Assembly: GCA_002730875.1 (NCBI GenBank)
Contig: PCBI01000019.1
Span: 124,001-188,000 of the forward strand
Reading direction: 5' to 3'
DNA: 64,000 nucleotides
Source: Spirochaetaceae bacterium
Lineage (GTDB): Bacteria; Spirochaetota; Leptospiria; Leptospirales; Leptonemataceae
Under the pieces are notes generated by a model. The model was not told where the DNA came from. It ran no database searches and saw only the letters and a program-made list of their open reading frames with translations. Position 1 is the stretch's first letter. Each line of letters begins with the position of its first letter. A program made the translations under genes and the position numbers. Shown here piece after piece: positions 36,609-43,123 of the stretch.

Positions 36609-37682
36609 ATGGCTGACGGTTCATTAACGCAAGAAGAGATAGATCTATTATTGCAGGGGGCAGATGACCTTTCCGGTCAGGCCCAGGAATCAGGTCCTGC
36701 ACAGAGTCAGGGCGGGGGAGACGATTTATCTCCTCTGGAGAAGGAAAACCTGGCGGATATTGCCTATCAGGGGCTCCGTTCGGGTACCCAGTCTCTATCC
36801 ATGATTCTTTCCAGGTCGGTGAACCTGGGAAATCCCTATGCCGAAGTCCGTTCTACAGAAGAAGCGGAGAAGGAATTCTCCAGCGGCTATGTTTACTTTT
36901 CTCAAAACCTGACGGGAGCTCTCTCCGGTTCCGTTGCTCTTTTTCTGTCCGTTTCCGATGCCAGCAAGATCAGCTCCCTCTTGATGGGGGGCGATGCCTC
37001 GGAAGAGGCCGGGGATAGTCTGGATAGCGCCCAGATCGCTACAATCAAGGATGCCATGGGCCCTCTGTTGTTCTCCATGGTGAACCAGTTCTCTGTAAAG
37101 GCCGGGGAAGCGGTAACGCCTCTCGGATTGGACGTCAAGAATGTGTCCGATGAGCCCACCTTTCCCGTGGGAGGCGGCCGAATACTCAGAGTGCAAATCC
37201 CTCTGAAAGTCGAGAATACGATCGACTCCCGGGTTACTCTTCTCCTGCCGCTGGAGATGGCCCGATTGCTTCACGATCGATCCCGACGGGCCGCAGCCGG
37301 GGCTCAGATGATGAATCCGGATATGGCGAATCAGCCCCAGGGACCACAGCCGGGTCAGAACCCGCTCAAGAACGTGGGTTTTCCTCAGCTATCCAATGCC
37401 GGCATGGGTCCGCTTACTCCCAACATGGATCTCCTCATGGATGTGGAGATGACTCTCACTGTAGAGTTGGGAAGAACCAAGAAATACATCAAAGAGATCC
37501 TCAGCCTCGGGGAGGGCTCGATCATCGAACTGGATAAACTGGCCGGTGAGCCGGTGGACCTGCTGGTGAACGGTAAGCTAATTGCTAAAGGCGAGGTGGT
37601 TGTAATTGACGAGAACTTCGGTGTTCGTGTAACGGATATTGTGAGCCAGGCTGAAAGGCTAAAGGCACGAAAACAAAACTGA
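36609..37682 (+). CDS. fliN: Flagellar motor switch protein FliY/FliN
   Basis: C-ring component of the periplasmic flagella that sets rotation sense and takes part in export. The ATG at 36609 is chosen because the protein then begins MADGSLTQEEIDLLL, the CheY-binding start typical of FliM/FliY; AGGTAG lies upstream. It has 357 residues. A CheC-like middle domain (about 50-225, GSVALFLSVSDASKISSLLMGG) is followed by a Pro/Gln/Asn-rich linker (about 235-275) and the SpoA/FliN domain (about 280-355, VEMTLTVELGRTKKYIKEILSLGEGSIIELDKLAGEPVDLLVN). The CheC part and length make it FliY-like. No other flagellar gene is adjacent. Nine bases separate it from the SET gene, so they may share a transcript. 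Confidence 0.93.
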   Translation: MADGSLTQEEIDLLLQGADDLSGQAQESGPAQSQGGGDDLSPLEKENLADIAYQGLRSGTQSLSMILSRSVNLGNPYAEVRSTEEAEKEFSSGYVYFSQNLTGALSGSVALFLSVSDASKISSLLMGGDASEEAGDSLDSAQIATIKDAMGPLLFSMVNQFSVKAGEAVTPLGLDVKNVSDEPTFPVGGGRILRVQIPLKVENTIDSRVTLLLPLEMARLLHDRSRRAAAGAQMMNPDMANQPQGPQPGQNPLKNVGFPQLSNAGMGPLTPNMDLLMDVEMTLTVELGRTKKYIKEILSLGEGSIIELDKLAGEPVDLLVNGKLIAKGEVVVIDENFGVRVTDIVSQAERLKARKQN

Positions 37683-37690
37683 AGTAACGA

Positions 37691-38338
37691 ATGAAAAAGA
37701 AAACTCCCTCAAAAGCAAAAAAGAAATCCAGCAACCCCGCGGCGAAGAAAAGGCCCTCCGCAAAGAAGAAACCCGCCGCGAAAAAAAAGCCAGCGGCCAA
37801 GAAGAAGTCTTCGGCGAAGAAAAAGCCGGCGGCCAAAAAGTCTGCCGGAACAAAGAAGCCCGCGAAAAAGGCCGATAGCAAGAAAAAACCTGCAGGAAGC
37901 AAGAAGACCTCGGGTCATCGCACTGTAGAGAAAAAGCACTCATCCAGCTCGTCTCGTCCCCGGATACTTCCTGCGGACACTCCGTTCCCCGTAAAGTTTA
38001 CGGAGAAGTCCAACAAAGCCATCGCAAAGTATGTTTACAACAAGAACAGCTCCATTCATGGAATGGGCGCCTTTGCAAAGAGTCGCATTCCCAAAGGAGC
38101 CTATGTTGGTTCTTACGAAGGAATACCCTCTCTGGATGATGATATATACGTACTATGGGTGGAACAGGACAACGGTTCCTGGCGGGGCATCGACGGAAAG
38201 AACGAATTGCGGTATCTGAATCATAGCTCCCGTCCCAATGTAGAGTGGAACGAAAACCGGCTCTACAGTACTCGCGTCATTGAGCCCCATGAGGAGCTCA
38301 CTTTCCATTACGGCGACGAGTGGGACGACGTGGACTAG
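37691..38338 (+). CDS. SET-domain methyltransferase with histone-H1-like tail
   Basis: 215 residues. Residues 1-85 are almost only Lys, Ala, Pro and Ser in short repeats (KKKPAAKKKPAAKKK and similar), like the C-terminal tail of histone H1 or the bacterial Hc1/HCT proteins. Residues 88-95 are a Ser run. Residues 100-215 form a SET domain: SSIHGMGAFAKSRIPKG (the GxG of the cofactor site) near 119-135, RYLNHSSRPNVEW near 176-188 (the NHSxxPN knot) and EELTFHYGDEW near 203-213. There is no post-SET Cys cluster. SET proteins methylate lysines using S-adenosylmethionine, so the tail could be a DNA tether, a substrate, or both. It is 8 bp after fliY. Its 3' end overlaps the 3' end of lnt by 41 bp. 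Confidence 0.9.
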   Translation: MKKKTPSKAKKKSSNPAAKKRPSAKKKPAAKKKPAAKKKSSAKKKPAAKKSAGTKKPAKKADSKKKPAGSKKTSGHRTVEKKHSSSSSRPRILPADTPFPVKFTEKSNKAIAKYVYNKNSSIHGMGAFAKSRIPKGAYVGSYEGIPSLDDDIYVLWVEQDNGSWRGIDGKNELRYLNHSSRPNVEWNENRLYSTRVIEPHEELTFHYGDEWDDVD

Positions 38339-41950: not shown

Positions 41951-43123
41951 TTAGCTCCTTGCTCGTTTGAGCTGCTGTTTCTTTGCTTCCAGACGGGCTT
42001 TCGCTTCTTGCTCCATCTTATCTACGTTTCCCAGAAATCTCTTATAGCTTGCTTCGTCCGAGTTACCCGCGATCTGGACCCCCAGGAGCAATTCGCCCGA
42101 GGCCATTTTTTTCTGAGAGCGAATCTGGCCAAACAGAGTGATGGGAGCCTGCATACGAAACACCAGGTCGAAAGTAAATCCGTTTTGTCGGGCCAGATAC
42201 GTTCGCAGCTCTTCATGGGTGATTCGTACTCGAATCCCGCCGCGCGAAACGTTCACAACCTGCTGTTTCTCTTTGATCATTACCGTGTTGGATCCGCGAA
42301 TCTTTTCTACCATATCCGCCGAGGCATTGTAGAGTTTATCCAGGGTTCCTTCCGGGAAGGTTCCCTTCTTTCCCTGCACATGAATGTAGCCAATAGGAAT
42401 GGGGCTACGGTCATGGGTCATGTAGATCACAGGTACAATGGCTTCCGCCTTTACCTTGTGATTTCTATACTCAATGATCTTCTCCTGTAACTTGTTGCCC
42501 AGAAGTGCGGCTGCATCCAGGCATCGGTCATCCTGCGGACGATAGGAATGGGGATCTTCTGTTGCGGGAATATAGATAGACTTGCCGTGTTTTTTGACCT
42601 GGTCCAACCAGGTGCCTCGTTTTCCAAAAGCGTCAATCTTCACGATTTCAAAATCCCTTTTCAGGATTTGCTCGTACTCCCCGAAGCCCACTTTCACCGA
42701 AGTCGGAATGGTCAGTGTATCTGTGTCGATAGTATGTCTACTCGCCAGGATATTTGTAATGTGTGCTTGATCCGGGCTGAGAGGAATCCGCATATTGGAT
42801 CGCTCTTTTTTGGCAATGGCGGCGCTGTTTACCTGGATATTGTACAGATTCTCGCCGGACTTTTTCAGAACCTCGCAGTGCAGCTCGATGTATCTGCCCA
42901 GGATCCTGAACAGCTGAAGCTTCATCTCTGGCTCCAGGGTTACTTTCTTACTCTCGAGTAAAATTCGGTTATTTAGATCGAATTCGTGGACCAGGGCTTC
43001 GGCCGGCGGATCCTGGCCCTTGAGAAACATGGTGCGGCCTTTCAGGTGCCGGGCCAGCAGGTGTTGAATCTTATCCGCGCCATACAGGTACTCCAGCTCT
43101 CTCTCTTGAACAGGCTCTGACAT
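41951..43123 (-). CDS. DUF1577-like protein with C-terminal PilZ domain
   Basis: 390-residue cytoplasmic protein. It resembles the Leptospira DUF1577 group, in which a long N-terminal region (about 1-270) precedes a PilZ domain. Seen: RxxxR at Arg108-Arg112 (ERSNMR) and a later VVNVSRGGIRVRI near 303-315, matching the (D/N)xSxxG motif of c-di-GMP-binding PilZ. PilZ proteins bind c-di-GMP through these two motifs. Here they lie about 190 residues apart, so binding is uncertain. A coiled coil ends the protein (EQEAKARLEAKKQQLK). It overlaps the start frame of the downstream nuclease. The HD-GYP gene at 20373 would degrade the same messenger. Confidence 0.75.
   Translation of the reverse strand: MSEPVQERELEYLYGADKIQHLLARHLKGRTMFLKGQDPPAEALVHEFDLNNRILLESKKVTLEPEMKLQLFRILGRYIELHCEVLKKSGENLYNIQVNSAAIAKKERSNMRIPLSPDQAHITNILASRHTIDTDTLTIPTSVKVGFGEYEQILKRDFEIVKIDAFGKRGTWLDQVKKHGKSIYIPATEDPHSYRPQDDRCLDAAALLGNKLQEKIIEYRNHKVKAEAIVPVIYMTHDRSPIPIGYIHVQGKKGTFPEGTLDKLYNASADMVEKIRGSNTVMIKEKQQVVNVSRGGIRVRITHEELRTYLARQNGFTFDLVFRMQAPITLFGQIRSQKKMASGELLLGVQIAGNSDEASYKRFLGNVDKMEQEAKARLEAKKQQLKRARS

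Follow-up and report, generated by a model that had tools for sequence, protein, structure and literature searches.

SET-domain lysine methyltransferases are best known from the chromatin of animals and plants. Here, we ask what such an enzyme might do in marine relatives of Leptospira, one genus of which encodes it, directly behind the flagellar motor switch gene fliY, in a single chain with a long tail that resembles histone H1 in composition. To our knowledge, almost nothing has been established about the targets of bacterial SET enzymes that are not secreted, and the open-access full-text literature yielded nothing specific on SET proteins in Leptospira or on SET proteins with H1-like tails. 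Each part of the fusion is ordinary by itself; what is unusual is that they are combined, and for its target we can name candidates only.

The gene lies in a 64-kb stretch of DNA that was analyzed as a whole and is called the window below. The original prediction for this locus, made from the letters of the DNA, described a basic tail of about 85 residues and a SET domain in one chain, 8 bp behind fliY, and this description held in every part. A single open reading frame (ORF) of 215 codons occupies exactly the predicted interval, the tail counts about 88 residues, the motifs GMGAFA, NHSSRPN, and EELTFHYG are all present, and 8 nt separate the fliY stop codon (37680-37682) from the SET ATG at 37691 (Table 1).

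Table 1. Parts of the tailed SET gene and its upstream partner, in positions of the window
Feature	Position	Strand	Evidence
fliY (flagellar motor switch FliY/FliN family), upstream partner	36609..37682	+	NF005995 FliY 3e-68; PF01052 3e-26
Gap, fliY stop to SET start, 8 nt	37683..37690	+	Sequence
Tailed SET protein, 215 aa	37691..38338	+	ORF, profile match, congeners
Polycationic disordered tail, residues 1-88 (K/A/S/P), net +34	37691..37954	+	Composition; AF2 pLDDT
Tandem repeat, 18/36-bp, encoding KKKPAA-type hexapeptides	37736..37840	+	Repeat analysis
Linker RPRILPxDTPFP (genus-conserved) and short helix into SET, residues 89-123	37955..38059	+	Alignment, AF2
SET domain, residues 124-208	38060..38314	+	PF00856 4.4e-10; residue conservation; AF2; Foldseek
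Acidic C-terminal end DEWDDVD, W211 invariant	38315..38335	+	Alignment of relatives

The SET domain is of a compact, vSET-like type

The SET domain matched the profile PF00856 with 40.3 bits, above the curated cut-off of 22.4, and all motifs of the S-adenosylmethionine (SAM)-binding and active sites (GxG, N-H-S-x-x-P-N, and E-E-L-T-F-x-Y) are in place. GxG corresponds to G124/G126 and NHSSRPN to N177-N183, and Y207 is the catalytic-type tyrosine. Residues G124, G126, N177, H178, N183, E202, and Y207 are invariant in 26 relatives, and P182 is kept in at least 90% of them. The AF2 model, built from 26 sequences, reached a pLDDT of about 90-98 in the SET core. Foldseek returned 364 PDB matches at E<=0.001, and the matches listed were all SET or related PR domains; those to the SET core include MLL, G9a, SETD8, PRDM, and vSET. 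Between congeners, the core differs at nonsynonymous sites by a pN of 0.04-0.13 and at synonymous sites by a pS of 0.64-0.89, which is saturated or nearly so. Its dN/dS is about 0.03-0.05 where measurable, at a dS of at least 1.4 or saturated in congener pairs; judged by these ratios, the SET core is under purifying selection.

The cysteine of the canonical NHSCxPN motif is replaced by serine, the C terminus contains no cysteines, and the Cys-rich zinc-binding post-SET region of the MLL and SUV39 types was thus not found in this protein. Since vSET likewise has no Cys-rich post-SET region, this absence excludes the MLL/SUV39 subtype and not the SET superfamily, and together with the Ser-for-Cys replacement it indicates a compact, vSET-like type. 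The protein is therefore best read as a putative compact vSET-like protein lysine methyltransferase, with a SET core of about 115 residues and a catalytic activity predicted from its motifs and modeled fold. vSET itself, from the chlorella virus PBCV-1 (PDB 1n3j and 3kma), is similar in the size of its SET core (about 110-120 residues), in profile (9e-9), and in structure (Foldseek E 8e-7; TM 0.70 by target length). It differs in being tailless and in acting on histone H3 Lys27, as the PDB entries name it.

The long tail was gained in one genus

A protein search of 61 genomes for the tailed SET protein recovered the same tail-SET architecture in four congeners (G001-G004, MAGs labeled Leptospiraceae or Spirochaetaceae), and the tailed proteins form a clade in the SET tree with a support of 100/99. 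Outside this genus (g1), the proteins either lack the tail or have about 25 basic residues in its place. In genus g6 (G009), the SET gene behind fliY encodes a tailless protein of 123 aa; in genus g2 (G005, G019, and G021), its product starts with a short basic N terminus of about 25 residues; G017 also has a fliY-linked SET gene; and in G015 and G016 the gene lies apart from fliY and its product is tailless. A tail general to Leptospirales, the order across which the original prediction had proposed to look for it, is thereby ruled out: it is confined to one genus, with sister fliY-linked SET proteins lacking it. The same prediction had counted absence of the tail from close relatives against its proposal; beyond the genus the tail is indeed absent, and within it the tail is present in all four congeners found.

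Wider surveys placed this pattern in context. PF00856 searches of 296 Spirochaetota and 274 gammaproteobacterial genomes, pooled with the remaining loci, gave 136 distinct SET cores, among which a comparably long tail occurs solely in the five congeners and in one gammaproteobacterial protein (L114). Two further proteins (L044 and L009) exceeded the numerical tail threshold and were discounted, because they were translated from before the probable start codon. When 84,980 species genomes were scanned by pattern, further compact SET proteins emerged, none of them tailed, in Planctomycetota, Myxococcota, Acidimicrobiales, Kiritimatiellota, and others. The compact SET proteins of Planctomycetota, Myxococcales, Acidimicrobiales, and Kiritimatiellota and of Leptonema-type relatives belong to the same subfamily, sharing YVLW, NHSxxPN, and FHYGxxW and the lack of post-SET cysteines; they differ in having no H1-like tail, and linkage to fliY is absent outside three genera. 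Tail gain is thus mapped, on the sequences compared, to a single event in one genus, and this genus-level innovation has at least one independent parallel.

That parallel, L114 (L114:1237-1869:-, genome G326), likewise joins a SET domain and a long H1-like K/A/T tail in one chain. However, its tail of about 50 residues, with KAKTKAK repeats, is C-terminal, its post-SET region is canonical and Cys-rich, and its SET domain falls into another subfamily, all of which marks it, by sequence, as an independent fusion.

The compact SET gene and fliY form an older unit

In genera g1, g6, and g2, the SET gene directly follows fliY, with a spacing of 8 nt in all five congeners of g1, an ATGA overlap in g6, and 2-6 nt in the two g2 species read. 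A wider block, fliY-SET-lnt-pyrE, is common to g1 and g6. In the g2 regions fetched, no ORF apart from fliY and SET matched the window, and the neighbors are signaling and dnaX-like genes. The link to fliY that the original prediction proposed is thus real, and stronger than a single locus could show, as the pair is conserved in three genera. FliY was found in 33 of the 33 genomes searched, and a SET gene follows it in these three genera only. The SET-linked FliY proteins form one clade, albeit not a strongly supported one (85/96), and the fliY-linked SET proteins form another (98/96); the inner order of the FliY clade is g1 versus (g6, g2), and the SET groups allow the same order. Most likely, as far as these trees can tell, the fliY-SET linkage arose once and before the long tail, so that fliY plus a compact SET gene would be the conserved unit and the tail a later addition. 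Since the pair is older than the tail, the basic job of the enzyme cannot depend on the tail.

In several other genera and in f2, the gene downstream of fliY encodes a membrane protein of putative FliO type, as judged from N termini. A FliO-like gene in this position in SET-less genera suggests that, in the lineage acquiring SET, fliY moved out of its flagellar operon. At the individual SET-less loci (L166, L170, L171, L174, and L179-L185), a gene for a short protein with an N-terminal membrane segment often starts within a few nucleotides 3' of fliY.

The strongest rival to a tether on DNA, introduced below, starts from this linkage: the enzyme would methylate FliY or another flagellar protein, and the tail would be an accessory of one genus, serving solubility or contact with an acidic partner or the ribosome and having no part in chromatin. 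A pair of single origin kept in three genera at such tight spacing argues for this, as does the g2 context, since fliY is all that the fliY-linked tailless relatives share around the SET gene. However, no FliY/FliN homolog was detected within 6 kb of the wider compact-SET relatives, the FliM/FliN family is missing altogether from 8 of 15 of their genomes, and G015 and G016, although members of the family, hold their SET genes away from fliY. A Lys-rich FliY C terminus unique to SET-linked species, considered as an obvious substrate, was rejected, since this C terminus is just slightly more basic in g2 and g6. We regard a flagellar substrate as possible, though on balance unlikely.

The basic composition of the tail is maintained

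The tail consists of 39% K, 17% A, 17% S, and 9% P, with 2% hydrophobic residues, and is predicted to be disordered (pLDDT of about 47-61 in the AF2 model built from 26 sequences). The label "histone-H1-like" given in the original prediction is apt for this Lys/Ala/Pro-rich, disordered, and strongly basic composition and does not extend to family membership, as no curated H1-like family matched: the Burkholderia-type H1-like model NF038053 scored 15 bits against the tailed protein at a cut-off of 80, and the Pfam profile search gave no match within the tail. A phmmer search of its own genome with the tail as query, limited by low-complexity correction, returned only the protein itself at E<=0.01. 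As for a second protein with a similar tail as a partner, a KKKPAA consensus search added just one spurious match (E 1.5).

No ATG, GTG, or TTG codon occurs between M1 and the SET core, so that the tail is always made when SET is translated from a standard start. With the frame kept in five species and no alternative start before SET, an artifact of low complexity or of an antisense frame is ruled out; a chance reading frame is likewise excluded, because the four other species keep the tail in frame while dS is saturated and the dN/dS of the core is low. Across the five species, the tail is 68-93 residues long, with a net charge of +23 to +34, 30-39% K, and 1-4% acidic residues, at an identity of 0.42-0.66 in an alignment that is itself uncertain for the tail. 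Because synonymous sites are saturated while composition and charge hold, we conclude from these comparisons that the tail is under selection at the protein level, which appears to keep its basic composition and not its sequence.

An 18-bp array of 5.4 copies (37736-37833) covers part of the tail, and slippage in this repeat might have extended a short basic N terminus like that of g2 into a low-complexity expansion without a specific role. Such an origin would account for the repeat itself and for the variation of the tail in length and sequence between species. Yet drift would have erased the character of the tail, whereas charge and composition persist in five species, acidic and hydrophobic residues being nearly absent. 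Moreover, the codons are mixed, with both AAA and AAG for Lys and similarly varied codons for Ala and Pro, which argues against a purely DNA-level repeat. We consider a roleless expansion improbable.

A possible tether to DNA

Tentatively, and with something short of even confidence, we propose that the tail localizes the enzyme, as a tether to DNA, rather than defining its substrate, since the sister enzymes manage without it. According to this proposal, a compact SET lysine methyltransferase would be translated together with FliY in one clade of the family, and this genus would have gained a disordered, H1-like N-terminal tail whose charge would tether the enzyme to a polyanion, nucleoid DNA being the most likely one. 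The tether would concentrate the enzyme near DNA-bound Lys-rich substrates, the HU protein of the genome being a candidate, and the tail would probably present some of its own lysines for methylation in cis. The intact motifs, the disorder of the tail, the retention of its charge, the AKK-rich tail of HU, and the precedent of automethylation in NUE count for this proposal. Against it count the absence of the tail from sister fliY-linked SET proteins, which makes it unnecessary for the core function, the occurrence of an HU tail in a genome without SET, and the fliY linkage, which suggests a flagellar substrate instead.

The HU protein in question (G000:C6:854451-854696; L145:1480-1989:-) is the sole PF00216 protein found in the genome. 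It begins MAKKAAKKSAKKTAKKSAVKASSNGK (N terminus, AKKAAKKSAKKTAKK), with about 25 residues forming an AKK-rich N-terminal tail. Three congeners have a similar AKK-rich HU start, and no HU was found in the incomplete genome of the fourth (G004). The AKK-type tail is common to relatives in the family and missing in genus g3. In G012, the HU tail is present and a homolog of the tailed SET protein is absent, so that HU tail and SET do not track strictly and their association across these genomes is suggestive only. A profile search of the same genome for Hc1 (PF07432) found none.

Chlamydial SET methyltransferases offer the nearest bacterial comparison. The original prediction had NUE methylating the histone-like Hc1; as described in the passages of the reports used here, Chlamydia trachomatis NUE did not methylate Hc1 in vitro and automethylates K209/K210, outside its SET domain (PMC2904774), and it is Chlamydia pneumoniae cpnSET that is reported to methylate the H1-like Hc1 (PMC3980110). 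By these descriptions, both are bacterial SET methyltransferases like the protein studied here; the chlamydial case differs in that the histone-like protein is encoded by a separate gene and NUE is a type III secreted effector, and the same passages mention neither a long polycationic tail nor linkage to fliY (PMC2904774, PMC3980110). By analogy, putative methylation of the protein's own tail, or of HU, is plausible.

A self-modifying nucleoid protein, whose tail would be both a DNA compactor and the only substrate and whose methylation would tune its DNA affinity, fits an enzyme with a polylysine substrate-like tail in the same chain and the NUE precedent, but is highly improbable, given that the SET core is just as conserved in fliY-linked relatives that have no such tail, so that a substrate in trans must exist, and that nothing points to the abundance expected of a nucleoid protein. 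We give even less credence to the most far-reaching version of the tether proposal, in which a DNA-tethered, chromatin-type writer would methylate both its own tail and the AKK-rich tail of HU and, through coexpression with the flagellar switch, would couple nucleoid state to flagellar assembly.

If a DNA-tethered SET enzyme does methylate HU-like tails, bacteria would have an equivalent of the methylation of histone tails. Sister genera of the clade, in which the same fliY-linked enzyme either has an H1-like tail or lacks one, amount to a natural experiment, and candidate substrates fall into two short lists, FliY and other flagellar proteins on the one hand and HU and the enzyme's own tail on the other.

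Other SET genes and neighboring loci

Two further SET proteins are encoded in the same genome. One (G000:C3:289162-289446; L001:955-1857:-) is a fusion of PF00856 with an S-adenosylmethionine-decarboxylase-like domain (PF02675) and thus joins a SAM user to a paralog of SAM decarboxylase; its gene adjoins an AdoMetDC gene (PF02675, 4.6e-41), and several genera of Leptospirales have proteins like it. The other (G000:C19:121775-122068; L002), 157 aa long from its ATG, is encoded about 2 kb left of the start of the window and about 40 kb from the tailed SET gene, beside a serine-hydrolase-like gene, with the same neighbors in the congener G004 (L025). Within the window, a gene for an endonuclease I family protein (PF04231; 40845-41951, minus strand) adjoins a gene for a DUF1577 protein (41951-43123).
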